Assembly (NCBI GenBank): GCA_030295235.1
Contig: AP026150.1
Coordinates: 62,001 to 126,000, forward strand
DNA length: 64,000 nt
Direction: 5' to 3'
From: Fistulifera solaris
Taxonomy: Eukaryota; Bacillariophyta; Bacillariophyceae; Naviculales; Stauroneidaceae
Under the pieces are notes generated by a model. That model saw only the letters and a list, made by a program, of their open reading frames with translations. It was not told the DNA's origin and made no database searches. Each line of letters begins with the position of its first letter. Positions within the stretch are counted from its first letter, which is position 1. Positions 6,904 to 63,570 of this stretch are shown here, in pieces. Position numbers and translations under genes: made by a program.

Positions 6904-7355
6904 TCAATCAAACAGAGGCTCATAGCTCATAGTGTACCAGTACGAGGTAGCGGATACCGGTACCGGGTTACGGAGTATTCGTTATTCATTCCTTTGTATA
7001 GGGAACTTTTCCTCCACGATCCAAAGCGACTGTGACGTAGAGTTGTTGGGTACGTGAGAGTATCCGAGTGTTACTCATCGTGAAACCACCGCTTCAAAAC
7101 AAGACTTTGTCGCAACACGACTTCAGGAGATGCTCTGTAGAAAAACGAAAACCGCAGCCGCAGCCACCGCCCAACAGAAAAGCTTCCTACCAGGTACTGA
7201 AGTAGGTATAGAGAGAGAATCTCTTCGATATTCCTTCCTTTCATTATTATTATTTTTTCATTCCTTTTCTTTCTACTATATACCAGGTGTATTCAAATCA
7301 AATCAAATCAAATCAAATCAAATCAAATCAAATCAAATCAAATCAAATAATAATA
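6904..7355. promoter_or_regulatory. Divergent promoter region with TACGGAGTA and TACCWGGTA words and an AAATC repeat
   Basis: Separates the DHHC gene (minus) from the acidic nuclear-like protein (plus). It holds TACGGAGTA at 6969-6977, TACCAGGTA at 7188-7196 and an (AAATC)n array at about 7291-7348 just before the ATG. Promoter function is inferred from position. Confidence 0.45.
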
Positions 7356-8780
7356 ATGAAATCACACAGTATCATCCAATGGCAAGAACTAGATCAAGTG
7401 GTGGAATCCTTGGAAGCGTTTGCCGGAGATACGGAAGCGGTCGAGCAGGTCGTTCAAAGGGTCGTCATTCACGAAGATGATGAAAATTATGATGATCATG
7501 ATGATGATGATGATGATGAGAATGATAATGATAATGAGGAGGAGGAGGAGGAGGATAAAACGAAAGAGATAAAAGAGAAGGAGAAGAAGAAGAAGGAAAA
7601 GGAAAAGAAAAAGGAAGAAGAAAAACACGAAAAAGAATACGACAGACACGAAGCAGAAGAACGAGAAATCATCAAAGAGTCGTAGATCCTTACAACCCAC
7701 TACTACTTTGAATGCAGCACTGTACGAACACATCCCCCCTCGGCATGGCGGGAGCGCACATGTTGGTGACATTTGGTGTTCTACAACCCCTACCGGAAAC
7801 TGTAGACAAAGCCTTGCAATTAACCCGACACGCTTTAACACAAGTCTTGCAACAAGCCACACAATTGCATCAACAACGTCAAACATCGTTTCGTCAAGCC
7901 CGTCAAACGATACGTTCCGATATTTATAAGTCGCGTCAAATACCGCATTCCCTGGAAACGTATTCGTCCGAATATCAATATCGTGTCTTGCTCAAACATG
8001 ATGCGGCGGCCAAAACGACAACCTGGTTGGATTTGGAAGATTTGCAAGCCTTGTTTCCCGAACAAATATACGCGTATTTGCAGTGGAATCAACGATTACT
8101 CGAATATCAACGCAACAAAGAAGACAACAATGATGATGATGATGTCGATGACGAAGAAGAAGAAGAAGAAGAAGACAACGACGATAAAGACAACAGGATC
8201 ACTCAGCCCGCCACGGGAGGACATTTAATGGAGCGAGCGGCGCATTTCGATCAACGTACGTGTCACATGAAAGAAGATTGGTATTTGCAATTTGCGCAAG
8301 TCATTCGGACGAAAGGATCCTTTTGCCCGCCCGCGATCCGGGATTTCACAGTACCCGCTTTTGGCATTGGATTCGTGTTCCTGCTATCCAAGAAGGGTCG
8401 TTCTGGTCACACGATGATTTCAAAGAACCGCATCCGATCGTTTCCAAGGCCATGGCCTTCTTGGCGTTTGATTTCTTGGGACGCATCATTGAACAAGCCA
8501 TTGTGTACAAAACGCATGATCATAATTGTACCGAATTGCCCCCGGATCAAACCTTGACACCAAACGATTTGTATACTGCGGTCCAACACCATCCCGAATT
8601 GCAGGAACTGACGGCGTCCTTTTTCAAACCACTACCAAGAAGAAACCCCCAAAGGCACCGCAATTGTATTTTGGTCCGGGTTTTGAAGTTCGCTTGGAAA
8701 TGGAGTTGGAAGAAATGTTGGCGAATAGTAAAGAAGAGGATGATACAAAGGAGGAACCACGAAAACGACAGCGGCTTTAA
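7356..8780 (+). CDS. Acidic/charged protein of unknown function, several frameshifts
   Basis: The coding signal runs through three frames: 7356-7682, then about 7690-7740, 7745-8310, 8310-8640 and 8640-8780. Changes of frame fall in or near runs such as CCCCCCTCGG (7735) and CCTTTTGCCCG. The product has an acidic/Lys-rich coiled stretch (DDDDDDDEN then EKEKKKKEKE), a central region beginning MAGAHMLVTFGVLQPLPE, a second acidic run, then a hydrophobic segment SKAMAFLAFDFLGRIIEQAI and a C-terminal region ending KEEPRKRQRL, a likely nuclear localisation signal. The helical segment followed by LTPNDLYTAVQHHPEL loosely recalls a histone fold, but no family is recognised. A nuclear role is only suggested by composition. 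Confidence 0.55.
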
Positions 8781-8808
8781 TTCAAATCTCTTTTTACTTA
8801 TAATTATG

Positions 8809-10691
8809 TTAATAACTCGGACTGCTCACAAAACGTTCTTCGTCGCCATCCAAAACTTCTTCTCCATCATCGTGACCTACTTTTTCGTAACGCGCCAAAC
8901 TGCTGCTACGACTGACATCCTTCCCTTCCCGTTTGGGATAAGCCAAGGCGTAAAGCAGATCCAGATGCTTGGACGATTGTTGCGACAATTGACCCGGAGG
9001 AGGCAACGATGCCATGACACTTTCGCGCGTGCGACGCTGAAGCGTCTTGGTCACCAGTCCGGTTTGACCGTCCGTGACACGAACATCACCGTCAGTACTG
9101 CCAATGGAGCGATCGTCGCTGTTGGCATCGTCTGTGGAACTTCCACTGGCGCGACCGCGGACGGCGCGGAGGAGACGGCGGTTCCATTTGTTGGTCACTT
9201 TCATGGAGATCATCGATCGTCCCAAACGGAACTGCACCGGTTGAGATGGAGAAAGCTCCAAGGGTCGTCTTAAATATAAGTAGGATCCATTGGATGACCC
9301 GGCGTCGGTGAAAATGAATTCCCCATTTTTGAAACGAATTGCGGCGTGGCGGGCCGAAACTGTACGATAGTCCAGGACCATATCCGAGCCACTGGACCGT
9401 CCCAACAAAAGAGGACGTGTGGCATTTCTGCCATCCGGCTTCATGAGTGTGCTGAAGGAAAGCTGAAACCTTGTGTTGAAAAGACGTTGAGCCATTTCGT
9501 GTTTCGTAGCCACCAACAAGGAGATGTACGGAGGCTCCAAAGAAGACTTGAAGAGTTTGACTTGGCGACCATCCTTCAACTTGAAATCCGATTTGAACGA
9601 ACTCTTGCATACCGAGCAAGTGGCATCCACGGATGAGAGAAAGCAAATCTGATTGTCTGCTTCTGCCGTGTGCCATTTGCGAAGGCACTCAACGTGCACG
9701 TATTTTGTATCACCACTGCACTTGCAGGGAGTAATCATGGGGTTCTCGTCCGTATCTTCTTCGTCGAAACACATGTAGCAAACCGGATTTTCACCCAAAT
9801 CTCCCTTGCTACTATTATTGGGGAGTTTTCCGTGTGGATTCGTTTCGCCGTCCGAAGAATCATCGGAGTTTTCTGTAAAACAAAAAAATGTGTTTGAGCA
9901 TGCCATTCACTTGATCTGCCTCTTATATTTCATTCCAGCTAACGTACCTCCATCCGTTTCGGCCAAATCCAAAAATCCATTCGAATTGGTCGTATCCTTC
10001 ATAATCTTTTGTATCTTTTCTTCACTCAAGACCTTGTTTTCCAGACCATCGTGCGTTTCAATGACAACCACACCGACCGACCCGACCCGCAAAAAGTCCC
10101 CTACTTGCAAGGTATGCGAGGCGGGCGGATGTTTGCGATCCCCCAACAGACGGCACGTTCCGGAATGTCGCGAGAACGCTTCAGGCGCCGGCACGACCCA
10201 AAAGGACTTGCCGTGCGTCGTGACGAGCAATTGACACGCGCGGGTATCCGACAATTCGTAACGTTGCAACTTGCGACCGACGTACTGGGCGTATTCTGTC
10301 CCCAAATCGACGCCGCTGCGATTGCGGTTGCTGCCCTGAATAATGACTCCTTCGGGTTTGATGGTGAAGGACGTGAACTTCTTTTGCCGCCGGCTTGACT
10401 GTTGTTACAGGGATAGACCTTGACTTCGACTTGTGTATCGAGACGCGAATTAATATCGGACGCCGGATTGATGCAACGTGCGGGTAATTCGGCTTCGCGC
10501 GTGCGGCCACGTTCCCAGTCTTCCACCAAATGCGGTGAAGCATCTTCATGTACAGCCGAAGACGGTGAACGCGGATTCAATTCGATGGGTGACGGAGAAA
10601 TTGTATCGGGACGGTGATGATTATTGCTTTCCATCGGAGGAGATGCACGAAGTAACGAAATATCTCGATTGCTGTTGTTGGCTTCGTCCAT
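8809..10691 (-). CDS. RINGv (RING-CH) zinc finger protein with FHA domain
   Basis: Two exons, 10691-9948 and 9872-8809, joined across an intron (9873-9947; GTACGT...CAG). One frame change near 10380 splits exon 1. The N-terminal part has a low-complexity acidic/Ser tail and a region ending in GDFLRVGSVGVVV that looks like a first FHA-type beta sandwich. Exon 2 carries a C4HC3 RINGv (CYMC, CKC, HVEC, CSVC, spanning about 9550-9790) followed by an FHA domain (LLLGRSSGSDMVLDYRTVSARHAAI, GSSNGSYL). RINGv domains normally act as E3 ubiquitin ligases and FHA domains bind phosphothreonine, so a phospho-dependent ligase is likely. There is no transmembrane segment, unlike animal MARCH proteins. Confidence 0.85.
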
Positions 10692-11881
10692 GATGAGTGA
10701 TTGAATGATTGATTGATTGCGAATGAATAAGAATGAATTAGAATAATAAACGATTGCTGTTGTAGTGAAAGTACGTTCGATTACTTCGAACTGTCGATTG
10801 CTACGTTTTCCGAAAAGAGAATGACAAAGAAAACGATGCCTGCAAAAGAGATTAAAACAGGCACAGATGAGAAGAGCCTCATCAACTCGAACAATCTAGC
10901 GAACGAAACGAGCGTATACAAGTACATCGTTAACAATTTCTCTTTCCCTCTCTTTTGTCGCACATCGAATACACCGATTTATTACAATTAGAACGTACAA
11001 GTTTCACTTTGGAAATAAAAACAAGAAATCAAGTGATAACAAGAAAAGAATGATCAATACAACATTCCAAACGGAGTTGAAAAGCAGCAAAAGCTGTTGT
11101 TGTTGCCAGAGCAGCGAACAAAAAAAAACCGTCCCAGCAACGCTGCTTGCGTCGTCGGCCGGGCCAGTCTTTTTTTTTGCGGGGATGTCTCCTACTTGGA
11201 GGAAGAGAGTCACGGAGCCTTCGCGTCTCGAATATAACATTGGACTGTAAGACAGGTTCTATTTGACACCCAGAAAGGATTGAATTGACTTTTTTCTCTT
11301 TTCTCTTTGGACTGTATTTAGTACAAAGTAGGGCGGGCGGACAAGTCGTTCGTGATATTTAATTAATTTAACCGTTTTGTAATTATTTATTTATCATTAA
11401 GTCGCTCTACGACATCTTTGGTGTACGACATCACCCCGGCTTCCGAAATACGGCAACAGCCCAAGGAAAAACTGCCAAATTTCCCAAGAACCTAGTACAG
11501 TTTCGACGATAGTTATTATAGGAACACTTCAATGGGTGGTTTCTCCGCATTCTTCACTCGTGATTGAATATTGAATACTGCTCGCAAAGGATCCGCCGAA
11601 TCACGAAGTCGTCGCGTCATTCTAGGGAGCATCAAATAATCGAAAAAGCTCGGCCGAACGACATAACACATGTTATTATTATTATTATTATTATTATTCA
11701 ATTCATAGTAACGATGCTTGCAGTATTTTCATCTTTCAAGTCGAACGGACTTTGACGAAAATCATGATTTGATTCTTCCTTTTCACAAGCCACCGTAGAA
11801 ATGATTTCCATTCGATCGGGTGTCATCGAGAGAACATGCCTCTTTGGCCACAATCAAGGCGTCGTCTGCCAGTTGCAAATG
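10692..11881. other. Intergenic, low-complexity AT-rich region
   Basis: No open frame here carries recognisable protein sequence. It contains a short TTA array (11671-11698). It separates the 5' end of the RINGv-FHA gene from the 3' end of the MYND gene, both on the minus strand. Confidence 0.5.
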
Positions 11882-12602
11882 TCAATCATCATCCAATTGC
11901 AGCTCCAGTGCCCCCGCCGTCACATTTTGATAATATTCTTTGCCCAATTGCAAACAGACGGCATACTCCAATGACAACGGAATCACGCCTACCGCCACAT
12001 GACCACACCGAAATCGCATCAGGACTACCATTTGTTGTTGCGCATCATAGTCGTTTACTGCTTTCTGCAGACAAGTCCGGACGGCGGTCAGTTCAAAATC
12101 ATCCCGACAAACTTCCGCATCGTATTCTCCCAAAGTCAAATAATGCAACAAGACGGAACGATTTCTTCCCGGAAGCGTCAAAGCCACCAAGGTCTGCGTA
12201 CTTTGGAGAAACAAAAACCGCGTCCCAAGGTTTGCATTTGATGAGCAGCGTAAGGCATGGCGTAAAGGCGAATCTGGTGCCACACGTGGTGGCGTGCGAG
12301 TACGGAATAATCATCAACGTCATCATCAACGTCGTTGTCGGGTGTTTTCCAGTGCCCATGAGTGTCAATGCGTTGATAGGCGGCACAATATTTCTTGTGT
12401 TTCTTTCTCCAATCCTGTATTTGACATTCTTTACTACAATAGATGGCTACGTGACATTGACTGCATTGTTTGGGTGTCGTCAATGGGGTATGACAATGAA
12501 AGCACGTGTTGTTGGAAGATATAATACGAATGGGGACACCGGCGTAACCCAATTCCAACGTTTGCAGCCATTCCGTGGATAGGGATGATGATGATGATTC
12601 GG

Positions 12603-12642
<40 letters not shown>

Positions 12643-12651
12643 CGTCGTCAT
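11882..12651 (-). CDS. MYND zinc-finger protein with poly-Thr N-terminus
   Basis: The N-terminus is a poly-Thr tract from an ACA microsatellite (12601-12648), then TEWLQTLELGYAGVPIRI. A MYND finger follows: CFHC, CSQC, IYCSKECQIQDW and HKKYC, complete for its Cys/His ligands. One frame change near 12245 joins the first part to a C-terminal domain (LGTRFLFLQSTQTLVALTLP ... VGVIPLSLEYAVCLQLGKEY) read in 12240-11882. MYND fingers mediate protein contacts, often with proline-rich partners; the C-terminal domain is not recognised. Translation continues openly after the first stop for about 30 codons in the same frame, so the true 3' end could lie near 11790. Confidence 0.75.
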
Positions 12652-13154
12652 TATTATTATTTTGCAAAAGAAGAAAAAAAAATACTGAAGAGAATCAATT
12701 GAAATGATACTAGCTAGCTAGTACTTGTGGTAGTCGAATGATTCGAATTGTTGGAATAAAATGAATGGCGTTATCCATGCGCGACGGTCTGTTCTTGATC
12801 GGGTCATTCTGACGTCATCGTCGAACACAATAAACGCCACACAAAAAAAGTGAAACACTAAAAACTAAAATAATAATATGCATTCAGATAGGACAAAAGA
12901 TAAAGGATGATGATATCTTCATGAAGCGAGGAATAAAGAGTTAGCAAGTACGGAGTAGTTAGTACCTGGTACGCAATTCATTCGTTCCTTCGTTTCGCAA
13001 AATCGGCGTAGCAATCCCTTGTCTGAAGAAGAGAAGCGTGATATTTCACCGTTGCTACGGCTACAACTACAACTATTAGTCGCCTTCCTTTGATTCACCG
13101 ACCATTCTTTTTCCGACGAACCAAACGTACAACAAAATTCATTGAAAGTACAGC
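12652..13154. promoter_or_regulatory. Divergent promoter region (MYND / ArgRS)
   Basis: About 500 bp between two outward-facing genes. It contains TACGGAGTA (12949-12957) followed 5 bp later by TACCTGGTA (12963-12971), roughly 190 bp upstream of the ArgRS start. No coding signal is seen. Confidence 0.45.
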
Positions 13155-15317: not shown

Positions 15318-15336
15318 GGAACGGGACGATGGATGG

Positions 15337-15371
<35 letters not shown>

Positions 15372-16426: not shown

Positions 16427-17060
16427 TGTGTTTTTTTTTCTTCGTTGTCAAACAAACACAACACAACACAACAAACAAGAACAACAAGATCGTCTCGTTT
16501 GGCTTTGATTATTTGATTTAATTTGATTTGATTATTTGAGTATAAAAAGCAGCGATAATATAGAGTAATATTATAGCAACAATAGAGGGTCACTTGCGTG
16601 TCTTGTTTTTCCAACGACACACACAAGATGGACGGTATAAGAAAGTCATTCTATCGTATCGGTACAATGAAACGAGCTGTGAGGCTCCGCGCACGCTCTC
16701 GTGCGAAGCCGCTCGTCATTGCTGTAGTAGGGTCCAGAAAGTACAAACGAAACAACAAAATCACACACTCCTACCAGGTACTACAGAAAAAACGAACGAA
16801 ACGAAACGAAACGAACGAGAAACGGAAAAAAAAGCCTTCTTCTCGTCAACGCTGCTCCATCGTCGTTCATTCGTTACAAACGAATACGAAAGATATTATT
16901 ATTTGAGAGACGTATACTATTACTATAACAAAATATAGACTTTTCGTCTTTGTTTCATCATCCACTCCGTTGATCTTTTGCAGATAGATAGTGCAATCTT
17001 CACCACAAACAAAACAAACAAACAAACAAAACAAACAAAACAAACAAACAAGCAAGCAAC
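16427..17060. promoter_or_regulatory. Divergent promoter region (RlmJ-like / REEP)
   Basis: Contains TACCAGGTA (16772-16780) and a CAAA-rich array (about 17017-17057) directly before the REEP start codon. No coding signal is seen. Confidence 0.45.
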
Positions 17061-17992: not shown

Positions 17993-19269
17993 TCGGGAAA
18001 GAGAGAAAAAAAGAGTCTTTTCTTTTTTTAAAAGTGAGTAGAGTCGTCACCCGTATTCATCAAAATGATACCTATTAGGACCCACAATCTTTATGAGTGT
18101 ATCTTTTTAATCGATGTACTTGCTTGCATGCTATGGCGTCCCATTGACTAAGACCCTGAGGATTGGGGTCTCTAGCCAAAAGATCGTATCAGTTGCAGGA
18201 TCTCCAGTCACCAGTCACTAATAACTTGCGGAAACGTGGTTTCGGAAATACTCGTACCAGGCTTCCAGGTCATGAGTCATGAATGAACGGAAACAACGAC
18301 TGACTGATGACTGACGACGACTCCTCGTTCCTCGTTGACCGTTGAGACTTCAAAAATCGCCATGTGCAAAATGCGAACTCCGTATCATCAGTCATGCGTC
18401 CGATTTTCGTCATATCCCGTGTGCAAAGAATGGTACCAGGTAGGTCCGGTGAAACCCAACACGGTACAAAGAACAAAGGCAGAATAAGTCTTAATACCGG
18501 TGACCACTAAACTTATATATTGCATTCTCCGCAACTGACCTCATCCATACAAAATACAAAATTGTACTTGTACCGACGAAGAAGAACCCGAAAAAAAAAG
18601 AGAAGAATCATCCAGGGAAGGACGTTAAAATTCTGCCTCCCAGTACAAGATTATACGTAGCGCCCACGACGAGGCAGAATTTTAACGCCGTTTCCAGGCA
18701 TTTTCACCGAAAACTGTCGTTTTGCCATACTCCGCGCCCTTCCGCCGCCACCGCAAAGTCTACGAGATTTCTACATAAAAATTGTACCACCCAATGCGAG
18801 CGCAGAAACGACTTTGTTTGTACCGGATTCTACATGCGAGGTACGAGAGGAATTTGCGACGATCGTTGTCACGTAAAATAACACGGGAGACTGCAAAACG
18901 CACCGTACAAACGGAAACATTTGGCCAGAGAGAGACCTCGAGCTCGAGGCAGCAGCAGCAGCAGGAGCAGCGTTGCATTTGTAGGGTGGTGGCGTGTTGT
19001 GTCTTCCCCCTTTCTGTTTTTTCTCTCTCCCTTTCTCTCTCTGGTTGCTGGTTCTTTTCCTTTTTTTCTCTACCAACGACAACTAACTTGAAAAACACAT
19101 TTTCGTTTGTAAATTGAAAAATCATTTACCGACTTGACAAACAGCGTGAAGAAAAGAGAGCTTGCGTGTGCTAACCAGCATTTGTGAGAGCCATTCGTTC
19201 TTTTTTTTCTTCTTTCCTATAATACCCCGGAGTATATTTATATATTTTTAAATAATATTATTTGACACA
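17993..19269. other. Intergenic region with an inverted repeat
   Basis: Nearly 1.3 kb without coding signal. It contains TACCAGGTA (18434-18442), a perfect 17-bp inverted repeat (listed separately) and a pyrimidine-rich tract upstream of the next gene. Confidence 0.5.
18623..18687. repeat. Perfect 17-bp inverted repeat with 31-bp loop
   Basis: The left arm CGTTAAAATTCTGCCTC (18623-18639) is the exact reverse complement of the right arm (18671-18687). A transcript across it could fold into a hairpin; the arms could also be a small transposon relic or a paired protein-binding site. Confidence 0.85.
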
Positions 19270-20250: not shown

Positions 20251-20425
20251 CTTTCTTGTGAGTGGAAAAGAGATCACCAGAGAATGTTGTGTAACAACAA
20301 GTCTAGCACTACTATTTGTCGATAACGTATTCTATTACTCCGTATGAGAATCACAACCTAATATCTAATATTGATACGAATACTTCTACTACTACAAGTA
20401 GTATTATTAGTAGTACTATTCTTCT

Positions 20426-21005: not shown

Positions 21006-22035
21006 GATGATGTTAGCTTTGATAGTAACTGTATATATAACGAAAGATAGAAAGAAAGAAAGAAGGTGAAAATGTATTGCGTAAGGAGTTTGTTGACTTT
21101 TGTATACCTGGTACCGGTACTGTATATTCTATCGATCGTTATTATTACTACGTATTTATTTTACGAATGCTGTGTTGTCGTTTTGACTTCCACAATGCGG
21201 CGAAATACCAGGTATCGTCGGTCGTCGGTCGTCTAATGGTGGAAGTGCAACGTGCAACCAAAAGGACCAAAGGGGTGCCACACGCTGGCATTGGCGGACC
21301 GACGGACGGACAGTCCGTTGATTCCGATCCTTACCGTTTCTGAAGTCGGATGTCGGATGCTTCCTCTCTCGGTACACTTCACTTGATACCCAACGACTCG
21401 TGTCTTCCATCGAAATCCAGGAACCGTCTCCCTTTCGGACAATCTACCAGACACAGTGTCACTCAAGTACTACATACATAATACATGACACAACATACAA
21501 CATTGGGAAGAATTGGGATCCAGTCAGGCATTATTTTATGATTTTGGAAAACGAAACGAAAAGTAGGATTCGAATGACTCTCGTAGAAAAGGTAGGCGAT
21601 AGGACAATGCAATGTACAAAGTAGGTCTGACGTCTGACGTGAGACCCCCACCGCGTCACATTCGGAGAGGTGGTTCGATTTCGAAAAAAACAAAACAAGG
21701 GGTGTGGGGGTGTGGGAGAGCGAGAGACGTGGGAGACCAGTACGGTACGTAAAACGTAAACGCTAGCTAGCATCGCATGGCGCGCCCCTCCCCATGGGTG
21801 TGCGTAAGCTTTTCTACGCAACAGTGTTCTTTCGCGCTTTTGTCGTGTGTCGTGTGTCTCTTTCCAGCCAACAAAAAACAATTAAAAAAAATAAAAGAAA
21901 CCAAAAAGAGAAAAGAGCGAGACCGTAAAAAAAGATACAAAGGAAAGCCTTTCGATCGATGTTCCTTTCTTCGTAACAACAAATTCTTTTGGTTCAATTT
22001 CTTCTTTCGTTCGATATTCTACCATTTACAAGAAA
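21006..22035. promoter_or_regulatory. Divergent promoter region (eIF1 / Q-rich protein)
   Basis: About 1 kb with two TACCWGGTA words (21105-21113 and 21206-21214, the first about 100 bp upstream of the eIF1 ATG). No coding signal is seen. Confidence 0.45.
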
Positions 22036-25884: not shown

Positions 25885-26591
25885 GGTCCGTACAATCCTT
25901 TTTTAGAGAGAATTTGGCTTGGAAAAGAACCACAACTTACCAACCAACTAACCAACAACCAACATATTCACCGTTTTCTCGTTGGTTGTTTTATGTTTGA
26001 AGTCAACCCGAAAGATCGAAACGAAACTGTCGGCTCTTTACCAGGTACTAACTACTTCGTATCCAGCGAGGTTCGCGGTTTGCTCTTCGTACTTGTTACA
26101 GTATTGTAAAAATAAAAATATAGTGTCGGATGTAAAAGACTTGCTACTTATCCAAATATAGTAAAACAACCATTCAGTGACGTCAAACGAAAGGATCGAA
26201 ACGAAAAGGGATCCATCTTATGGAATCAATCTATTACCATGCTTTGGTAGTCTGTGCGAGGAAAGACTTGTGCGAGGGAAAGAGACGTGGAATGTGCGTG
26301 AATTATTGCAATGGAAGCAAGCCCTCCATGACACAACCTATCTCTATAGAGGACAGGATTACCTGGTATCACTGCCGCTCTCACACGAGAAGGTTCGTTC
26401 GAGCCTATTATTAAACCGAATCAATTCCATCGAGTGGTAAATCCAACACACATCTCTTCTAGATATAAAAATACGGAGTAAGTAGCTATTTTCTACATGT
26501 CAAAGAAATCTAAGATGAGTCTACACGATATCTAGTGGAACCAAAACGAACTTTTACTTTTATCATGGTTTCTTATTTTCCATTCCAATCT
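25885..26591. other. Intergenic region
   Basis: Contains TACCWGGTA at 26039-26047 and 26360-26368 and TACGGAGTA at 26472-26480. Short open frames at 26177-26440 lack domain character and are not called. Confidence 0.5.
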
Positions 26592-34034: not shown

Positions 34035-35594
34035 CGTGCACAGAAGACGATGACGATGATGAAGTCCAAACAACTCTTTGTTCGGTCAGCGGTAGCATAA
34101 CTGCCTAAAGACGGCACGTCGCCTGCTAGCGATCGAGTTCAGTGCATTAATCTTTGTTTCATTCTGTAAATCCCATAATGATAGAGAAAGTCTTTGACAT
34201 TTTAATGTCAACGGTGTCACCGCCATGGTCGATGGTCGTGTGTGACTGTGTGACGTTTATAGATTTCTTTGTAAAGTACTTTTCAACTGATACTATTTCG
34301 ACCCTTTCCTTTTGGTGTTACGTACTACGTACCTGGTAGTACTTGTAAGTGTAAGCGCATGCGCTACGAAAATGCAATTGCAATTTCGCTCCCTTGAACC
34401 GGTATGACTTTCATTCTCAAAAACTGGTACTAAATACTAAAGAACTAGGTAAACTGGTGCGGAACTCGGTAACTTTTCCGATGTTCGTCCACCATGGTGC
34501 CCTTTGGCTCTCAACTTTGTATTACTTCCTAACAATTGAGATCGACAAGAAGACCTAATCGGCCTTTGAATCATTCTTTAATCATAATCCATATCGCAGT
34601 TTTTCTGTCTTCTGTTCGTTGCTCTGTTAATTCAATTGAAGGCAACGTCCAAGAAAAAAACTACACTTCTTCCACAACAGCTAGTTGAATTGCCTTTTGA
34701 TGGCGATGGCCGACCTATAAATGGTTATCCAGCGTGAATTCTGTCGACGTCGAGCAGCATTGTGTTTGATGAATTGAAAAAGGATATCCGCCACACTAAA
34801 ATTCGAACCTGGTTTCTCGCATTCGCTCAAAATTATCGCTTCCAATCGTCGAACCGAAGACAGATTTGACATTAACAGGCTGAAAAATGCAGACTATTCA
34901 AGATTATTCAAAAGAATGAAGGGAAGAGATACTTGTCGTTTCAAGTCTTTTGTCCGGGACAACTTCCTTCCTGTTTGGACAGAAAAGTAGAGGCGGGCTC
35001 ACGAAGCAGGAAGAGAAGACGCTTCACGAGGCCATTTCCATCGCACGTCTGCGCCCATTTGTGACTTAAGCATGAGAATTGATTGGATCTATGACATTCC
35101 TAAACAAGCGAATGGGATGCAATGAAATGCATTCTTGTTGATTGACTTGCTTTCGTCGCTTGCGCCCCGTGAGCAAGTGGGAAATGGAATGTTGCGATCG
35201 TCGTCTTGCGTGACTGTTAATTCGACTGATATCATACCGGTACCGATACGATAGTGCAACTCAAATGGAATTCCAAATTCCATTGATTTGATTATTTTTC
35301 GAAGTTCCGCTTGCAACTTGCAACACGCACTTCAACTCTCAAAAACACGAATGCCATGCAGCTGTCCGAAACGAGACAACACACAAAATAAAGCAAACGA
35401 AACATTTAAAAAAATTCAAAGAAACACGCGCTAAAGTCTCTTCTTCTAATACCGAAGTCAACGGGCGAGTCACGGCAATCAATCGTTTTTGTAGAGGCAA
35501 ACGAAAAAGGCAGCGTCGAGACTGCACTTATCTCTTGTAGACTTCTCTGTGGCAAACTCGGAAAATCCATACTACACCCAATTAACAGCCGAGA
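34035..35594. other. Intergenic region, 1.56 kb
   Basis: TACCTGGTA at 34330-34338 is the only notable word. A 63-codon minus-strand frame (34681-34872) was considered and left out for lack of support. Confidence 0.4.
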
Positions 35595-36636: not shown

Positions 36637-37411
36637 TATTCGAAGGCAAGTTTTGATAAGAAAACGAACGACGGATTCGATTTTTTTGTGGGAATATGAT
36701 GGAACGACTCTAAAGAGGTAGAAGCCTACTGAGCTGGTTTTGGGACTCGAGAAAAGGTGAGATTTGAGTGGCCTCCAGCGGACATGGAAATAATTTCTCC
36801 GCGCCTTGTCACTTGTCACTCCTCCCAAATCACAAACGATGAAGAACTGAACTTTGATCAATAATGACAGTTGTTGTTGGTGACTGAGTTAGTACTAAAT
36901 AATTAAAAAAACGAAGACAAACGTATCAACAAGATACAAGTACAAGTACCGGTACCGGATCCTTACCTACAAAGTAGAGACCTGCAGAGAAGCCACTATG
37001 CACACACTCTACAGCAACCGGAAAATGAAGTGAATTGGAAATTGGGTGCCTGGTGCGTTTTGTGAGTTGCAAACAAGAAACGGACTTCGACATTCGAAGA
37101 GATGACGACGATCTCGAACGGAGTGAGCTATTCCAACATCAAGATTTGGTCTTCGATTGAAAGGGATGGGGTGAGCTGATAACGGTTTGATCTTTACATT
37201 TAAATTTAAAACGAAAACTCGAATTGCTCCTCCATCACGAGGTACTAGGCAATTTAAAGAAAACTGCATCGATTACTAAGCTCAAAGGAATAAAATGTAA
37301 AAACTAGCCCAAGGCTGACAATATGTTTCGTGCCGGAATCGCAAGCATTGAAACTCCAGTCGCGCGGTTCATGTAGCGGCAAGATGCCTCTCAGGGGCAT
37401 GGCTTCCGCCT

Positions 37412-37651: not shown

Positions 37652-38186
37652 GGTTTCCAGATTTTTGCAATGAATGATGCAATAATGCCTTTTGATTTTG
37701 TGGTGGAAGCGATTTGGTTGGAAGTCGATGGAACGATGATGCACGTCCAATTGCCGACAAAAGATAAATCCGTCATTTGCCACCTCGGACAAAAACACAA
37801 AACACCTCAGAACTCTCGGATAATATCCCAGAGGGGCATGTTAACGGTCGAAAAACATAAAGTTAACCCCCTTCTAGAGAGTCAAATAGGCAAAAGGTAC
37901 AAGTGTGATGAAGAACATGTTGAAGATGACCGAACGTCATCCGTTCATTTTCTACGTCTTATTTCCGCTTTTCCGTTTCTCCGGGGCAAAGAAGGCCCAG
38001 AGTCGCACCCGACACCCTACTCTGACATCAAGTAGGTACCGGTATTCATGTGACGCCTGATACGTGATTTGGAGATTTGCGATCCGCGATCTGCGATCGT
38101 CGGCATGTCGTCGGTCGTCGCTGCGTTGTATCGCTTAATGCAGGTGTAGAATGTAGAAGTAATACTAATATTATTCAAAAGATCTA

Positions 38187-42523: not shown

Positions 42524-42816
42524 GATATATGTACTTGGAAGCGAAACCTCAATGTAATGCAATATGATTTTTATAGGTGTCAGACGTTTCTGTATAACAA
42601 ACAATCCATGAAGCAAAAAAAATAAGGATGTGGACGTCGTGATCATGATTGCTTTGGATTTAGAACTGTAGGGGATTACACCGATAATGTAAAACACCTT
42701 CTATCTGTTGTGACTTTTTTGTAAAGAATAATGTACACCGAAGCGGTCTGGCGTGCCAACGAGTACCAGGTAGTTTTCACAAAAGCATTTCTTGACATCA
42801 TTTGAAATACGGAGTA

Positions 42817-54633: not shown

Positions 54634-55123
54634 GTTTTTGATAATTGAATTAGGAAAATTGTGGCTTTTCAAAAATATAGCATAATTTTGCTTGGAACTA
54701 TGAAAGAACGTCAATCGACCAGTCCCGTGAAAAATAAGATTTAATGACTCGCATCATTGAGATTTTCTCGCTTATATTTTCTCTCTATCATTGACAAAAC
54801 ATGCATCAATTTGAAAAGCACGGCTCTTGTTAAATCTATGAGCGTGCTGGGAGTTTATTTGCATTTGTATTACTCATCATAAAAAAAGTCGAGATTATTT
54901 TCCATATCTTGCTAATTTACAACAGTTAAAACATGGTTGACGGCCCGTTCGGTTTATTGTAGCAAACATGATTTTCTTTATTGAGGGGAATTTTTAAAAA
55001 ATTTAGATTAAATACAATGGTCTTCAAAGGATACTATCATGTGAGCACGCGTACGGTTCTTGGTCCATTTTTCATGATTTCTTGGGACATCATTAAATTA
55101 AGAATCGGGGTTTGATTGAATGA

Positions 55124-55820: not shown

Positions 55821-55841
55821 GGGGTTTGATTGAATGAAATG
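55124..55841. repeat. Array unit 4, truncated
   Basis: It follows the NDH2 part to ...GCAGCAGCCTTC (55820) then jumps to the last 21 bases of the unit (55821-55841). It also has an internal 133-bp tandem duplication (55490-55622 repeated at 55623-55755). Confidence 0.9.
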
Positions 55842-56522
55842 CTTTCTTATCATCGGAACACCTGTACGGTCTCTGGTTGTTTTATCATGGCTTCTTGGAA
55901 TCCGAGAATAGAAGGATCACTGCGGGAATATTGAGGTTGTTTTTGTATGTCGCCTATTTTCATAGCTGTACAACACTGGTAAACTTATTTGTTATAAATG
56001 GTTTTCAATTTTGTTGCTTTTTGATTTTCCTTGTTTTTTTGTTTTGCAGTAGATGTATTAGAAATGATTTAGCTGTGAAATGCAAGGTAAGACGTCCTGT
56101 AGGGATTTTTGCGGACTATGTTGTTTTTGTCTTTTTACTTAAATTGCAAGCGTCATCATAAAACAACTGGGCATGCTAGGCAAGGCTGTTCAGAAAAGTA
56201 GATAATTACGAATAGGGCTTGATTCCCGCTTCTTCCAGGGCCGGTCTACTCCCGTCCGAACGCCGCACGGATTTTTTCTTCACAGCGCTACTTAAACCTT
56301 CAACAATGTATTGAATAAACTTACTTAAATTAAATTCGCTATTGATTCTGTAAAGATCGCCGTTTTATAAGTATTTTTTATAAATATTCTGTTTGCTCAA
56401 TTGCTTCCAATAGTGGCTCACGACTCTTTTGTTAGGTCTTAAGTGTTGGCTTACCTTGGAGCTTTAACTGGGTATAATTAGTTAGCCCTAGCCTTAGTAA
56501 TGAAATACCAGGTAATAGTTTG
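55842..56522. other. Unique DNA between the array and the copia element
   Basis: The first 70 bases resemble, with many differences, the last part of the array unit. 56236-56364 resembles the DNA just right of the copia element (61067-61175). TACCAGGTA is at 56506-56514. No coding signal is seen. Confidence 0.5.
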
Positions 56523-56527
56523 GTCAG
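56523..56527. other. Target-site duplication, left (GTCAG)
   Basis: Five bases directly outside the left LTR, identical to those outside the right LTR. Confidence 0.9.
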
Positions 56528-56741
56528 AGCGATAATAAACGAGATTCTCAAGCGAATATCACAACAATATCCGCAAACAACGATACAACTTCGAATAACA
56601 AAGTCAATCCTAACACATTAAAGATTATCTACGATTGGTGTTGCATCGCAACAAGTCATTGCAATGACGTCGCACTTTTCTACTAACTCGTGTATCAGTC
56701 AGTCACGTATACTTGAACGAGATTGCCCATTCATCTTCACT
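56528..56741 (-). repeat. 3' LTR of the copia element (left)
   Basis: 214 bp, starting AGCGATAATAAAC and ending CATCTTCACT on the plus strand, i.e. AG...CT ends rather than the usual TG...CA. It differs from the other LTR at 2 positions near 56661-56663. Confidence 0.95.
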
Positions 56742-56752
56742 CTCCCTCTCAA
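56742..56752 (-). other. Polypurine tract
   Basis: The minus strand reads TTGAGAGGGAG directly before the 3' LTR, the expected place for plus-strand priming. Confidence 0.75.
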
Positions 56753-56835
56753 TCGAAGTTCATTCTCTCACAAATTCCTAAAATCCTAAGTTCTCTAAAC
56801 ATGTAATCTCTCTCTTGATATGTCATAGGATCGAA

Positions 56836-59800
56836 TCACCAACCCATCAACATCTTTCGTTTCGCTTGAAATTCCACCTTTGATAACCCTTTAGTGAAAA
56901 TATCAGCCTTTTGAAGTTTCGTATCAATGCGCTTTGCCTCAATCTCTCCTTCACGTAAATGCTCAATAAACCACCAGTACTTGCAAGCAATATGCTTCGT
57001 TCTTGGTGTCATCTTTGGATACTCATTGTTCATCATAATCAATGCTCCATTGTTGTCCTCCCATACGGTAGAAACTGTAGAAGCAGAATCTCTGTCAATC
57101 CCGAAATGAATAGTAAGCTCTTCCATCACCTCTCTGATAGGCAATAGCTGTCTCATCGCAACCGATGCTGCAATAAACTCTGCTTCTGTAGTAGAAAGCG
57201 AAATTTCCGTCTGTAACTTTGAACCCCACAACACAGGAACGTCACCAAGTGTGATGACATATCCCGTTCTACTCTTCACACATACCGGATCATTAGCATC
57301 TTCCGAATTCCACAATCCAGCAAAATCAGCATCCACAAACAAATCCAATTTCAGATCATTCGTTGGACGTATAATCATTCCTCTCGTTCTCGTAGCCTTT
57401 AAATATCGACCGATCGTCTTCAACGCCTTCTCGTACTCGCTTTCGGACAATGAGTGAATCGCGCGCATTGATGAACAGCAAATGCAATGTCGGGTCTCGA
57501 ATTTGACGCTAAATACATCATCATTCCAACAACACTCGCATACGACCAAGCTTCGACGCAATCTTCACCATTCTCATCCTTTCCAAGTGTAGTCGGGCTC
57601 GCGGGAATCTGATTTTCTCTACTATCCTGCAATCCCATCGTCGCAACAATTCGATCAATAAGCCCAGTTTGCGACAACTCCAGAGTTCCGTCTTCTTTTC
57701 GCTCAATCAATATACCAAGAAATCCAGCAACGCTCTCATCTTCGACCTTAAGCTGAAATCTCTGATATTTCTCATTGTGACATAGATCATGAATGACCAC
57801 ATCGATATCAGACAAATCGCGTGCAAAGAACAAGCAATCGTCCACATAAGTCAAGCACACAACCTTATCAGAAAGAAACAAGCACGGCTCATTCTTCCGA
57901 CTGACGAAATCCTCTGTCTTCCAATCCTTTCTTCAATGTCTTAAAGAAATTCAGTGGGCTTTGGGCGTAATCCATAAACACTCTTCTTCAACTTGAAAAT
58001 ATACCCTGGTCTATCGTGAACGCTTTGGCATCTCACAATAAACCTCTTCGTCAAGATCGGCTTGAACAAAGGCTAACGTATAATCAACCTGTCGTGGTCG
58101 CCAATCCCAAAACTATCGACATAATCAACAACAGACGCACTGTACTCCACGAAACTACCGGTGCATACGTTTCAAAGAAATCAACTCCTTCAATCTGTCG
58201 GTCTCCTCGAATACACCAGTACGCTTTGTACTTCTTCACCGTTCCATCGGGATATCTTTTGCATTTGAATGCCCAGGTACTCGGCAATATATTCGCTCCC
58301 TTTTCTATCGCCCGACCTCGGTACTTCATCCCACGGATCTAATGCTTTCAACGAATAATACTCTTCGTCCATTGCTTTCTCATAACCAATTGCATCCCGG
58401 ACCATTCATCGGCTTGATAATAGTTTGGTGTATCCTCATTGTTCGCCTTCGCAGCAAAAGCAAACGGATGCAAGTCCTCAATCAAGTTGTCATCGTCGCT
58501 GTGTTTGCATCATCGAAACATATGCCCAATAATTTCCAACAGCCAACGGTTCCTCATCAAAATCCAATGTCGACAAGAACGCGTCATTCGAAGTCAGCAC
58601 TCCAAATTCAGCTTCAATCTCATTCAACAGTCTCTCTTCTTCGCTCAAACCAAACTCAGATTTGACAAAGTTTGCATCATCTTCGTCTTCGGGACCATAG
58701 TAACGATCTCCTTTCACCGGCTTATTCGCATAATCGGGACCGTAAAACTTTCGATTCCAATGACGATTTCTTCCACTTCTCCTTGGTGGTTGGGGTTCCT
58801 CATCTTCATCCACTATGTCATCATCTCCCTCTGGAAACAATAACGGTACGTCTACTTCCACTTCATTCAAATCATTCTCCACAGCTTGTACATTTCTCAC
58901 AGGGCGGGACCAGACTCCCGACTCTGTGCTCGTCGCTTAAGAAACTCTTCTCTCTTCAACTTTTCTTGATCGGTAAGCCAATCTTTGTGCAACAGAGGCG
59001 GTTCATCATCCAGATCCACTTTGTCTCTGCTAAATGTCAACAACTCTTCCCAATTTTTAGGCTCAGGCTCGTCGGCATTTGGATTCTGTACCAACGGAAT
59101 TGTCGTAAACCTTTCATCATACACCACATGAAATTGTGATGATACTGCACCAGTCCGCAAGTTCCTTATCAAACCAATCGTACTCGCGTGGCTGCCGACA
59201 TACCCAAAAACTGTCCTCTTCGGCTTTTCGGGTTGCCAACGAGGTAACTTCTTTCCGTCCTGAACTTTCGCATCCAAAACGTAACACGGACATCCAAAGA
59301 CTCTCATTTTCTGCAAAACATCCATGTTCATTGTAACTCCTGAAAATAACTCAATGGGTGCCAAACCAGTGTCCTTTTTCAGAAGTCGATTCCAAAGATA
59401 GACTGCATAGTCCACTGCAAATGGCCACAAATCAATACTTGTCTCAGCTGGCCAGTGAATCATTGCATGTAATAGCATTGTTCTTGCACTCTCGGTAATC
59501 GTCAGACGCGTTCTCTGCAATACCATTTTGATGATGCGCTCCAACGCCAGAAAACTCGACACTCTGCCCTTTCAGCTCTAAATCTCTCATGAATTCTCGC
59601 GACTTGTAAACTCCTTGATCGGTACGGTATCCCTGAATTTCAACACCATACGATCTCGCTTCCTGCTCAAATGCATGCTTCGCTCTGAGCTGCCTCTGCA
59701 GCCGTCGTTGTAATTTGATTTCGGCACAAACATGTAACTCGTTGCTGTATCAACGAATATAGTTCCATAGCCATATTTCTCATTCTCTTGCTCTTTTCCA

Positions 59801-60780
59801 CGAAGTCTCCAATCGTCGACCACGTTCAGTTGAAGTAAACTGATCAGATGAAACGACTTGGCCTGGCTGTAGGATGCCGGCCTTCAACACGCCGTCTCGA
59901 CTCGGAATTTTCGACTGCTTTTCGGTCTCAATTGCACGTCTTTTCGCTTTTCCGTATTGACATGCAGCACAAATCGGCGGCTCGCACGAGGACGTCTTTT
60001 CATATCAGCGTAGGAATAATTGGTACCGATGCCTTATCCCCCTCTCGAACTCAGCGTGAGTCGCTGAATCCACTGAAAGTTAAAATGCCCCAAACGATCA
60101 TGAATCAACTTCAATTCACGTTGCGCGGGCGTCAGGTTCAAATTCTCTTCCAAAGTAACTTGAATAGAGCTAGGAGCCACAGCAAATGCTTGATCGACCA
60201 TCGAAGCATCACACGTTGTTGGACGTGCAATAGGAAGACGATCTTTGGTAGCGTAAAACGTAAGCTTGGACTTCGTAAATGGAAACCGGAAAACACATCC
60301 ATGTTCATTGACCATGAATGATCCATTGCCCCCTCTGGCTTCAACCTGGAAATGAACTTGAGGGCTGAACAATCGTACCTGCGCCGAAGGAACATACAGC
60401 TCGATGACGGATCTCTTGAACTTGTCCATTATCATCACGAATTTGCCACCTAACAAAGCCCCATCCTTTCACTTTCTTTGGGAACGGAATATTCCCTTCT
60501 AACTGCTCAGCGACGCTTAGAACTGTCGCCGGAGGCGCTTCTCCATCCAAATGATTGCTCAAATAATCAAACTGATCGGCCATGTTGTCAGTTCCAGTCG
60601 GTTCGGTCAACAGTTCCAACTGTTCAGGTTCCAATTCGCTCGATTCGTTTACGTCTTCAAAAGACGACAATTCGCGCTCTTCAAAGACTTCTTCCTTTTC
60701 CTCTTTACCCACTTCTTCTCTCAAAGCAGGTATTTCCTCTTGTTGCCGAGCTCGTGGTGGGTCAGCACTTCTTGTTCGGC
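56836..60780 (-). pseudogene. copia pol (protease C-term, integrase, RT, RNase H), frame-broken
   Basis: Reading leftward: GWGFVRWQIRDDNG and VPSAQVRLFSPQ (end of protease region, 60480-60360), LKLIHDRLGHF (GAG-pre-integrase, 60100), integrase DDE residues in IFVDTATSY, RTDQGVY and HHQNGIAE (59800-59500), WNRL (59385), RT start (WAFKCKRYPDGTVKKYKAYW, 58270; YAPVVSW), the YVDD box (57845), and RNase H with FVDADFAGLWN, STTEAEFIA, KHIACKYWW and TKGLSK (57330-56870). At least eight frame changes occur. No gag core, zinc knuckle or protease D-[TS]-G site is seen between the leader and 60480. Confidence 0.85.
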
Positions 60781-60833
60781 CGTGTTGGCATTCAATATCT
60801 CGTCTATCAAAACAGATCCAGCAATCGCGCGTG

Positions 60834-60850
60834 AATCTGGGCTCATAACC
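60834..60850 (-). other. Primer-binding site complementary to a tRNA-Met anticodon loop
   Basis: Directly inside the 5' LTR, the minus strand reads GGTTATGAGCCC. Its complement GGGCTCATAACC matches an anticodon stem-loop with CAU anticodon, as in Drosophila copia, which is primed by an initiator tRNA-Met half. Confidence 0.75.
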
Positions 60851-61064
60851 AGCGATAATAAACGAGATTCTCAAGCGAATATCACAACAATATCCGCAAA
60901 CAACGATACAACTTCGAATAACAAAGTCAATCCTAACACATTAAAGATTATCTACGATTGGTGTTGCATCGCAACAAGTCATTCCGATGACGTCGCACTT
61001 TTCTACTAACTCGTGTATCAGTCAGTCACGTATACTTGAACGAGATTGCCCATTCATCTTCACT
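60851..61064 (-). repeat. 5' LTR of the copia element (right)
   Basis: 214 bp. It would carry the promoter of the element. It contains ATGACGTCGC, a CRE/bZIP-type ACGT-core site, at about 60987; the left LTR differs just upstream of the same site. Confidence 0.95.
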
Positions 61065-61069
61065 GTCAG
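61065..61069. other. Target-site duplication, right (GTCAG)
   Basis: Five bases directly outside the right LTR, identical to 56523-56527. Confidence 0.9.
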
Positions 61070-61260
61070 TGCTGGTCCAGCCCCGTCCGAACGCCGACAC
61101 GAATTTTCCCTCCTAGCGCTACGAACCTGGTAAGCCTCCGACAACTGCTATTTGATTCTGTTCAAGGCCGCCGTTGGTTCGACAACAAAGGTAGAGAGAT
61201 CCGCGACGACAATAGAACAATGATAAAATCTTGCCAAGAATGCGTTATTTGCCAACTAAG
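61070..61260. promoter_or_regulatory. AFG1 upstream region
   Basis: Immediately right of the copia insertion. It shares CCCGTCCGAACGCCG and AGCGCTAC, at the same spacing, with 56251-56291 on the other side of the element. Confidence 0.4.
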
Positions 61261-62676
61261 ATGATTTTAGGGTTTATACGGCGCGTTCTAAGTCGACATT
61301 CGGTCAACGCTTCATGCCGACCAGTACAACTGGATGGTCTGATTGCACGGCGGGGACAGAGCAATACTACTGCTCACTCTAGGTCGTTATTTGAAGTTTA
61401 CGATGATATGATTATGAAGGGGAATATACAGTCGGATCCACATCAAGTGGTTGCACTCAAAGAGCTAGAACGATTACGAAAGAATTTAATGCAGCATAAA
61501 CCTCCCCAATTCACGAAAGCGACGCCTAGCACGCCTCCTTCCATCAACAATACATCATCGTGGTGGGGGTTTGGAGCCTTATCGACAGAAGTGTTTACTC
61601 TAAAGAATCCCTTTCATGGTGTATACTTACACGGGGGTGTCGGCTGTGGCAAGACTTTCTGTATGAATTTATTCTACGATTCGATCGACAACAATTGTTC
61701 CTGGTCGAAACAGAAGGTTCACTTTCACAAATTCATGTTACGTGTACATCAAGAAATGCATGCAGCTAGAGGTAAGGGAAACGCTGACGCTATTATGCCC
61801 ACTGTCGTTAATTCGGTGGCGGCTCGTGGGGCGCTGATATGCCTTGATGAGTTTCAGGTAACCGATGTTGCGGATGCGCTTATCTTACAGCGATTATTTA
61901 CGGGCCTTTGGGACAAGGGATGTGTCCTAGTAGCAACATCGAACCGGCCTCCGCAAGATCTGTATTTGAACGGCTTGCAGCGTGCAAGGTTTCTGCCCTT
62001 CATTGATCTTCTTCGCGAAGAGTGTAACGTGGTTAGCATGGACGAAAGCGAAACGGACTATCGGTTGGTGCAAAGTTAGAATCCGGAAGTATACCGGTAT
62101 ATTTCACAAATGAGGCTTCCGAAAAGAAAGCGTTTGACAAACTGTTTTATGACTTGGTGGGAAGCAGTGCCGTGGCCCCTACGCAGCTAGAAACGTGTGG
62201 GCGAAAAATTGTTGTTCCACAAGCCACACTGAAGAGAGGTATCTGTCGGTTCGACTTTACGGATCTATGTAAAAAAAGCTTTGGGTGCAGCAGATTATTT
62301 AGTGATTGGGCAATCCTTTGACACGGTATTTGTGGAAAATATACCGACTCTGACCCTCAACGAGATTAATTGGATACGTCGCTTCATTATTTTTGTCGAC
62401 GCCATGTACGAAAGTAATGTGAAACTAATCCTTCAAGGCGCTAAACCAGCACAGGAATTGGTGCAAGTAGATAAATCTGACACGGGAACAAGTCACGATG
62501 AAATTTTTGCGTTCGATCGAACAGTCAGCCGACTGATGGAGATGTCCAGTGCATCGTACTTGAAGCGAAAATGGAAGTCACACACATCAGACAATCCTGC
62601 TGCCATGCTCTCTCAAGCTCGTGCAACAGTCTGCGTTCAACCTAGCTTGGGGGATTCTAAAGAGCGCAGGCAGTGA
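61261..62676 (+). CDS. AFG1: AFG1/LACE1 family mitochondrial AAA+ ATPase
   Basis: ATG 61261 begins MILGFIRRVLSRHSVNAS, a likely mitochondrial presequence. Family motifs are FEVYDDMIMKGNIQSDPHQ, Walker A GGVGCGKTF, KVHFHKFMLRVHQEMH, Walker B GALICLDEFQVTDVADAL, and ATSNRPPQDLYLNGLQR with RARFLPFIDLL. The C-terminal part (LGAADYLVIGQSFDTVFVEN, INWIRRFIIFVDAMYE, AFDRTVSRLMEM) is present. Two frame breaks occur, near 62066 and in an A7 run at 62271-62277 where A6 restores CKKALGAADYL. AFG1 proteins help degrade or handle inner-membrane proteins, including complex IV subunits. Stop at 62674. Confidence 0.93.
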
Positions 62677-62728
62677 GTTATTCCGAGCTAAGTAGTTTGT
62701 AATGTCGTTGATGTTAAATGAATCGGCG

Positions 62729-63259
62729 CTATTGGTGAAGAACTTCATTTTCTTGTAGCAATAATAGTTTCTCAGACAAAACTAACATGGTCTTTTCGTA
62801 GTGTTCCAACATCTGATCAAGCCGCGCCGTTAATCGTCTGGTACGCTGCTGGGTGTCGCTTAACGTAGCTTCAACCATTTCCAAGCCGGCCGGATAGTCG
62901 TCAGTAGGCTCCAGCAGAGGGGAACCAAGTATAGTGCTGTGATTGGGATCCCTTGTGACCAGTTGTGAAATCAATTGCAACTGCTCTAAAACTGCCTTGT
63001 AGTCTTGAGCAGATGCTAGAATTTCTTGTTGCCGGTAAAGTAGAGGAGCAATTCCTCCGGACGCATTGTGAGATAAAGCCGTTTTCGGGTCTAGCTCTTC
63101 CATCAGTGATGCAATGAAATTCCAGTCTTTAGGTTCCTCTAATGAACTAGTTTCTAGTGCCTGCAAACGTTCCTCGAGGTCGGCATCATTGTTGGAGAAA
63201 CCTGACACTGCCTCCAACTGTGCAATGCGCTGTTCTAGCTTCATCAACCTTTCTGTCAT
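62729..63259 (-). CDS. Dynactin p22/p24 (DCTN3)-like coiled-coil protein
   Basis: Start MTERLMKLEQRIAQLEAVSG at 63259 is chosen because the longer frame (from 63394) adds an unrelated hydrophobic stretch, and TACGGAGTA sits 31 bp upstream. The 176-residue protein has a leading coiled coil (LEERLQALE), a middle region with LYRQQEILASAQDYKAVLEQ, and a final helix (RLDQMLEHYEKTMLVLSEKL). The last helix matches the end of animal dynactin subunit 3 (EEYNKTTMLLSKQF). Dynactin p24 sits in the shoulder of the dynactin complex. Family assignment rests on this pattern only. Confidence 0.55.
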   Translation of the reverse strand: MTERLMKLEQRIAQLEAVSGFSNNDADLEERLQALETSSLEEPKDWNFIASLMEELDPKTALSHNASGGIAPLLYRQQEILASAQDYKAVLEQLQLISQLVTRDPNHSTILGSPLLEPTDDYPAGLEMVEATLSDTQQRTRRLTARLDQMLEHYEKTMLVLSEKLLLLQENEVLHQ

Positions 63260-63570
63260 GTTTTTAGCCGAATGATGATTGTTAGATGATACGGAGTACT
63301 TGGGTAAATTATTGATCGAGAAGAATGCAAATAAGTAAAAGACGAATGATACCAGGTAGATCGAAGCAACAGTTAAATTTAGGTGTTTTCGCACCTCGCG
63401 TCTGCGAGATGCGACATGCGACGAAAAATATGGAGCATTTTTGTTTCAGGGTCGTGAGTCACGAGGAGTCATGGAAGAACTATTTATTTATTTGCTAGCA
63501 CAATCAAAGTATCGCATTTGTTAGTCGGAACGCTTCGATAAGCTAACATTTCCAATATGTTATATGTTAC
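63260..63570. promoter_or_regulatory. Region upstream of the dynactin-like gene
   Basis: Contains TACGGAGTA (63290-63298) and TACCAGGTA (63350-63358). Confidence 0.4.

Follow-up and report, generated by a model that had tools for sequence, protein, structure and literature searches.

Abundant TA-bounded words in the Fistulifera solaris genome: possible excision footprints of TA-target transposons

The diatom Fistulifera solaris carries thousands of copies of a few short, exact words bounded by TA, the commonest being the palindrome TACCWGGTA (W, A or T). This word was raised in an earlier note on a 64,000-nucleotide stretch of contig AP026150.1 (hereafter the window; C37:62001-126000), as an undescribed intergenic signal that might form a two-part regulatory module with TACGGAGTA or mark a methylation-linked site. 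Here we describe TACCWGGTA, TACGGAGTA and the palindrome TACCGGTA as members of a wider family of words that often join into chains by sharing one TA. We favour, tentatively and at somewhat less than even confidence, the reading that they are footprints left by the excision of Tc1/mariner-type transposons that target TA; sites of sequence-strict DNA-binding proteins are nearly as likely.

Genome-wide counts covered 51.7 Mb in 61 contigs. The main sample of 314 kb comprised the window, 10-kb stretches chosen by position at 23 places and 20 kb of contig C36; further DNA consisted of 21 kb of homoeologous C36, three short C36 pieces, the ends of a few transposons and loci that searches had raised. 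All 12 copies of TACCWGGTA noted earlier in the window lie exactly where they had been placed, as do the four named pairs with TACGGAGTA (Table 1). Across 100 dinucleotide shuffles of the window the mean count was 0.24 and the maximum 2; the excess is thus borne out, while the expectation is lower than the earlier figure of about 0.5. TACGGAGTA occurs there 7 times (0.22 expected). Genome-wide, TACCWGGTA remained strongly enriched, with 4365 copies against 328 for a reversed-word control and a Markov expectation, scaled from the sample, of 99-204; the enrichment is about 13-fold relative to the control and 20- to 40-fold relative to the Markov models. This corresponds to 84 per Mb, about half the window density. 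TACGGAGTA and TACCGGTA were found 2789 and 2766 times (controls, 312 and 877).

The enrichment of TACCWGGTA is one of the exact word. With up to one mismatch allowed, the genome-wide count was 11662 against 10811 for the control; the one-mismatch forms alone numbered 7297 (control 10483, 0.7-fold; Markov expectation 3863-5566, 1.3- to 1.9-fold). In the sample these forms showed a low and fairly even excess on both strands (66 against 33.5; in 126 kb of non-coding DNA that excluded loci fetched for the word and held 30 exact sites, 64 against 28.8). Variants with a central C or G were scarce (4 on the two strands together, with 0.8 expected, where exact sites numbered 37), and those with an altered TA end were mildly enriched.

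Among all 64 three-letter inverted pairs at gaps of 0-8, TAC-N3-GTA and TAC-N2-GTA were the two most enriched. When TA-N5-TA words were ranked in the 314-kb sample, CCWGG came first (31 against 0.81 expected) and CGGAG second (24 against 1.32), the next core reaching 11-fold; among TA-N4-TA words, with an ATAATAA microsatellite set aside, CCGG (22 against 2.1) and CCAG/CTGG (18 against 4.2) stood out. The family TA-C..G-TA therefore has peaks at CCWGG, CGGAG, CCGG, CCAG and CAAG, and neighbouring members often share exactly one TA. Recognition of a GTAC or GGTACC core was considered and dropped, as GGTACC outside the words is hardly enriched (18 against 14.3 expected).

Two CCWGG cores lie within 30 bases of each other in 353 genome-wide matches, against 32 for the control. 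In the list of 50 distinct close pairs, 18 overlap by precisely one TA, and 33 can be read from end to end as a TA-C..G-TA chain (1.65 by chance), by a parsing rule that was fixed after sight of these 50 pairs. The 314-kb sample holds 29 chains of at least two modules (3.6 simulated) and 8 of at least three (mean 0.0 in 8 simulations), and different units can be mixed in one chain, as with CCAGG, CCGG, CCG and CCTGG in the locus L024. TACCWGGTA and TACGGAGTA do co-occur beyond expectation: contig C1, over its initial 1.16 Mb (87 and 60 sites), has 10 pairs within 100 bases and 6 within 30 bases, against 0.9 and 0.27 under a uniform model, an expectation that confinement to non-coding DNA would lift about threefold by our estimate. 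TACCWGGTA clusters equally strongly with itself there (5 pairs within 30 bases against 0.19), and it also pairs with TACCGGTA and several other TA-C..G-TA words. Because the pairing is general and often involves one shared TA, and because TACGGAGTA lacks the subgenome bias sampled for TACCWGGTA (see below), we do not retain the private two-part module.

A Tc1/mariner-type element would insert at a TA and duplicate it; on departure both TA copies would remain, with a few bases of the element ends between them. For ends of the form TA-CCA...TGG-TA with 3-base overhangs, an overlap by one mismatched base would yield TACC[A/T]GGTA, and a two-base overlap would yield TACCGGTA or TACCAGTA/TACTGGTA; for TACGGAGTA/TACTCCGTA another family of elements would be the source. 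As each scar provides two TAs for the next insertion, scars would stack by sharing one TA. Such scars would predict exactness combined with turnover, mixed TA-sharing chains, words in convergent gaps, depletion from introns and an A/T centre, and their slow decay would give the low, even one-mismatch excess. The exact word has TA on both sides of the presumed remnant, as a footprint should, and TA-sharing chains are common. Footprints of mariner and Stowaway elements are reported to keep TA plus 1-4 end bases (PMC9632168, PMC1925063), that of Sleeping Beauty is TACAGTA/TACTGTA (PMC4378557), and re-insertion beside an old footprint has been reported (PMC1925063).

A candidate source was found in a 2-kb mariner-like element (L030:4640-6674) with a 23-base inverted repeat, CCATTCGGGTCAAATGAGTTTCT, that begins CCATTCGGG, so that its ends read TA-CCA...TGG-TA and would allow CCWGG, CCGG and CCAG. 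Its protein gave a weak DDE_3-like match (E 0.0023, 18.3 bits; curated cut-off 28.6), and it has seven full-length matches at 99-100% identity and one broken copy. Ends were read at two places in L030 and in 13 fetched stretches (L043-L055): TA adjoins the repeat at all 12 ends that show it, and L044, L048 and L054 lack the repeat. From sequence we infer excision as the origin of the words, this or a related mariner as the agent, and the overlap step. A second, non-autonomous element of 578 bases (L007:2111-2686; also L037, L038 and L039) ends in AGGGCTGGTTAC, has a TA target and was seen in five places, with copies of at least 95% identity on C1, C5 and C13. One copy sits inside the last TA of a TACCAGGTA, at a locus raised by the word search, and the right TA of another starts a TACCGGTA. 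Two ends in 22, of which one came to light through the word search, are too few to link transposon ends to words. Locus L007 also holds a diverged repeat family (L007:395-1470) with tens of matches over many contigs.

F. solaris is reported to be allodiploid, with 42 homoeologous chromosome pairs of 75% overall homology (PMC5935921). Many of 87 light-harvesting matches fall at corresponding places in contig pairs, for example C1/C2, C13/C14, C19/C20 and C36/C37, and C36 is the homoeologous counterpart of the window contig. The 21 kb of C36 that face window 7-27 kb contain no exact word opposite 8 TACCWGGTA, 4 TACGGAGTA and 2 TACCGGTA sites; none lies opposite 42764 or 63350, and none in the 801 bases read for 34330. 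In total, no exact homoeologous word was found for the 11 TACCWGGTA (one partly read), 6 TACGGAGTA and 2 TACCGGTA sites compared, one TACGGAGTA site differing by a single base. At 63350, deletion of TACCAGG from the window leaves 23 of 30 bases matching, the best placement by one base, with a longer gap following to the right; at three other sites the window exceeds its homoeolog by 18, 8 and 12 bases. More generally, where 60-600 bases of non-coding DNA separate two conserved anchors, the longer interval is more often that of the window (6900-27100) than that of C36:91101-112100.

Table 1. Words of the three kinds in the window, with remarks on the homoeolog (C36) and the immediate surroundings.
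Word	Position	Strand	Remark
TACGGAGTA	5038..5046	+	exact match
TACCGGTA	6955..6962	+	exact match
TACGGAGTA	6969..6977	+	exact match
TACCAGGTA	7188..7196	+	no counterpart in homoeolog
TACGGAGTA	12949..12957	+	in 18-base length difference to homoeolog, shared with word at 12963
TACCTGGTA	12963..12971	+	extra bases in otherwise conserved non-coding DNA: 21 here, 3 in homoeolog
TACCAGGTA	16772..16780	+	exact match
TACCAGGTA	18434..18442	+	exact match
TACGGAGTA	20336..20344	-	exact match
TACCTGGTA	21105..21113	+	opens chain TA-CCTGG-TA-CCGG-TA-CTG-TA
TACCGGTA	21112..21119	+	TA in common with TACCTGGTA at 21105
TACCAGGTA	21206..21214	+	exact match
TACCAGGTA	26039..26047	+	anchored interval exceeds homoeolog by 8 bases
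TACCTGGTA	26360..26368	+	exact match
TACGGAGTA	26472..26480	+	exact match
TACCTGGTA	34330..34338	+	closes chain TA-CG-TA-CTACG-TA-CCTGG-TA from 34319; 801 of ~2100 homoeologous bases read
TACCGGTA	35235..35242	+	exact match
TACCGGTA	36947..36954	+	closes chain TA-CAAG-TA-CAAG-TA-CCGG-TA from 36935
TACCGGTA	38037..38044	+	exact match
TACCAGGTA	42764..42772	+	absent from homoeolog; ambiguous alignment
TACGGAGTA	42808..42816	+	homoeolog apparently ungapped, with substitutions
TACCAGGTA	56506..56514	+	9 bases left of retrotransposon copy 56524-60474; outside homoeolog comparison
TACCGGTA	62092..62099	+	within predicted exon
TACGGAGTA	63290..63298	+	TACGGAGAA in homoeolog, conserved stretch, no gap
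TACCAGGTA	63350..63358	+	window locally 7 bases longer than homoeolog

The two subgenomes could be told apart by an 87-base fold-back dispersed repeat (window 18612-18698) with inverted arms around GTTAAAATTCTGCCTC and a DNA fold z of -5.7. Its 39 listed matches (39 of 434 candidates scored) lie on C2, C4, C6, C8, C10, C14, C16, C20, C22, C24, C26, C29, C31, C35, C37 and C46, and none of these 39 is on a partner contig by our pairing; as one contig of each homoeologous pair carries it, the repeat looks like a subgenome marker. We call the repeat-bearing contigs B, the window among them, and their partners A. The repeat was rejected as a source of the words, since only the window copy has CCAGG at its start and its end, the two other sampled copies differing there, and TA borders none of the three. 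In the sample, B (164 kb, window included) and A (151 kb) hold 27 and 4 TACCWGGTA, 20 and 2 TACCGGTA, and 14 and 10 TACGGAGTA, so TACCWGGTA and TACCGGTA vary together and apart from TACGGAGTA. The true B/A ratio for TACCWGGTA must be lower than the sampled one, because the A contig C1 carries 100 copies in 1.3 Mb (77 per Mb up to the hundredth); the idea that one subgenome lacks the word is accordingly wrong. Listed copies number 41 up to base 269470 on C2, 42 up to 438458 on C1 and 17 up to 197352 on C3.

Several observations weigh against the excision reading. Its source element is a candidate only, and clean empty sites are rare. The elements number about 8 and the words over 4000, and all ten mariner protein matches lie on C1, C9, C13, C23, C34 and C36, contigs assigned to subgenome A, which is the word-poorer one in the sample. 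PF13358 gave no candidate genome-wide, a profile that also misses the L030 mariner. The CGGAG word is without an identified source, no element with CTCC or CGGAG ends being seen in the 352 kb scanned. An exact W (that is, CCWGG), CCGG or CGGAG word shares its TA with 2 of 22 transposon ends, or 1 of 20 once the element found through the word is set aside. Other cores that might have been left behind are not enriched (CCG/CGG, 24 against 21; CCATGG, 0 against 0.2; CTAG, 1 against 1.2). In the homoeolog comparison, 63290 and 42808 look like substitution in the homoeolog, not insertion, and the 7-base difference at 63350 is one case among variable ones; because window intervals are generally longer, length difference is weak evidence of insertion. 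The words also show a mild, about twofold peak on the promoter side of genes.

This peak belongs to a second reading, which we regard as a serious possibility although one held below even confidence, in which the words would be bound by one or several dimeric proteins of strict sequence preference and would act as promoter elements or general regulatory factors. One protein would read TACC(W)GGTA, with the central A/T optional, and another TACGGAGTA; TACCWGGTA and TACCGGTA are indeed palindromic and strict. Genes were predicted with a home-made ab initio gene finder, for which long open frames in the window and the sampled stretches served as training set. On these predicted models all 12 window copies of TACCWGGTA are non-coding, in agreement with their earlier description as intergenic: eight are labelled intergenic and four intronic (12963, 21105, 21206 and 56506), and we take the latter as intergenic too because the gap around three of them exceeds 500 bases and the fourth, 12963, falls in a tiny, doubtful model. 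In the 314-kb sample, 29 of 31 copies lie between genes, with one in coding sequence and one in an intron. The three words pooled gave 67 occurrences in intergenic gaps, 2 in 19.9 kb of introns, 3 in 176 kb of coding sequence and 5 in unclassified stretch ends (22.6 kb). Depletion from introns would also suit scars, since a large insertion there would harm.

Divergent gaps (28 words in 23.9 kb) are richer than tandem gaps (33 in 64.5 kb), and the richest zone lies 150-400 bases upstream of starts (24 in 16.8 kb, 1428 per Mb, against 7 in 10.6 kb, 663 per Mb, at the same distance past stops), the first 50 bases near start codons having no words. These results would favour binding sites, but convergent gaps, where no promoter is expected, have 6 words in 6.5-6.9 kb and a density of 918 per Mb, similar to that of divergent gaps (980) and above that of tandem gaps (481), and a strong 5' bias is absent from tandem gaps. 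Nor are the words conserved above their flanks, as the unmatched homoeologous sites indicate, and two dimers bound to different words that share exactly one TA would be expected to clash. Similar-looking promoter motifs are reported from the stramenopile Phytophthora infestans, TACATGTA and TACCGGTA itself (PMC3597505), and the commonest promoter motif reported for F. solaris, TABASTA, is tied to higher expression (PMC5935921). Recognition of TACnnGTA by a heat-shock-factor-like protein was rejected, P. infestans factors being reported to bind TTC-type sites (PMC11267843).

A local mutational process at short palindromes, such as template switching, quasi-palindrome correction or slippage in GTAC-rich arrays, would require neither transposon nor protein and could produce chains of similar units, some of the listed arrays being near-perfect palindromes overall by our reading. 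We think this improbable: chains such as that in L024 mix units of different length and sequence, which is not a product of slippage, the scarcity of central C/G variants speaks against it, and the 353 close pairs are a minority beside 4365 words.

We consider it very improbable that the words belong to a longer dispersed repeat or signal methylation at CCWGG, even though one copy lies beside a retrotransposon and other repeats occur close to some copies on C1. Neither outcome named earlier as refuting the signal, a lack of genome-wide excess or a longer dispersed repeat, was seen. The flanks (40 sites read both ways, part of them at loci that a search for the word had brought in) show no longer consensus beyond a mild preference for G before and C after (46%), and CCWGG outside the word is barely in excess in the non-coding sample (113 against 103 expected), leaving the suggested methylation link without support; Dcm-type CCWGG methylation is, moreover, bacterial. 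The retrotransposon copy, with related sequence to about 61069, has no C36 match. Its relatives on C43 and C12 are 97-98% identical to it, and one of its frames gives a match, short of the curated cut-off, to a retroviral SH3-like domain.

If the words are scars, past cut-and-paste events can be counted in their thousands in this genome (4365, 2789 and 2766 copies for the three words) while few possible source elements survive, and motif searches in diatoms and oomycetes may have been detecting scars. TACATGTA is the footprint of Tc1, and the Phytophthora motifs TACATGTA and TACCGGTA and the diatom TABASTA, which includes TACAGTA, have the classical form of a TA-transposon footprint. The broader proposal, that scars which grow into chains, and not protein sites, are the commonest apparent promoter motifs in F. 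solaris and perhaps in other stramenopiles, we hold to be doubtful. If instead the protein reading is true, this diatom would have a sequence-strict factor, still to be named, with candidate sites in the thousands. The earlier view of a real signal lacking a description is upheld: among the papers listed by the searches, no title or abstract gave an account of TACCWGGTA or TACGGAGTA as a genomic word, although the supplementary motif table of PMC5935921 may list them, and TACCGGTA is the one already described as a promoter motif.

With Dcm/EcoRII sites the words have the pentamer CCWGG in common; they differ in that enrichment is limited to TA-flanked CCWGG and that the host is eukaryotic. With the P. 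infestans motifs M93 (TACATGTA) and M94 (TACCGGTA) and the F. solaris TABASTA they share the form of short TA-bounded words abundant near genes, TACCGGTA being identical; those motifs were called regulatory from expression data, whereas here TACCWGGTA and TACGGAGTA dominate and occur in convergent gaps too (PMC3597505, PMC5935921). Compared with reported scars of Tc1/mariner and Stowaway elements (Sleeping Beauty TAC[A/T]GTA, Osmar5, Ppmar2 and Triticeae Stowaway), the words of F. solaris differ in their usual spacing of five bases from TA to TA, in running to thousands of copies, in the strong dominance of a single word and in a source that is a candidate only. They resemble those scars in the duplicated TA with what would be a few end bases between, in the ambiguous central A/T of the palindromic case and in what would be re-insertion beside an older scar (PMC1925063).

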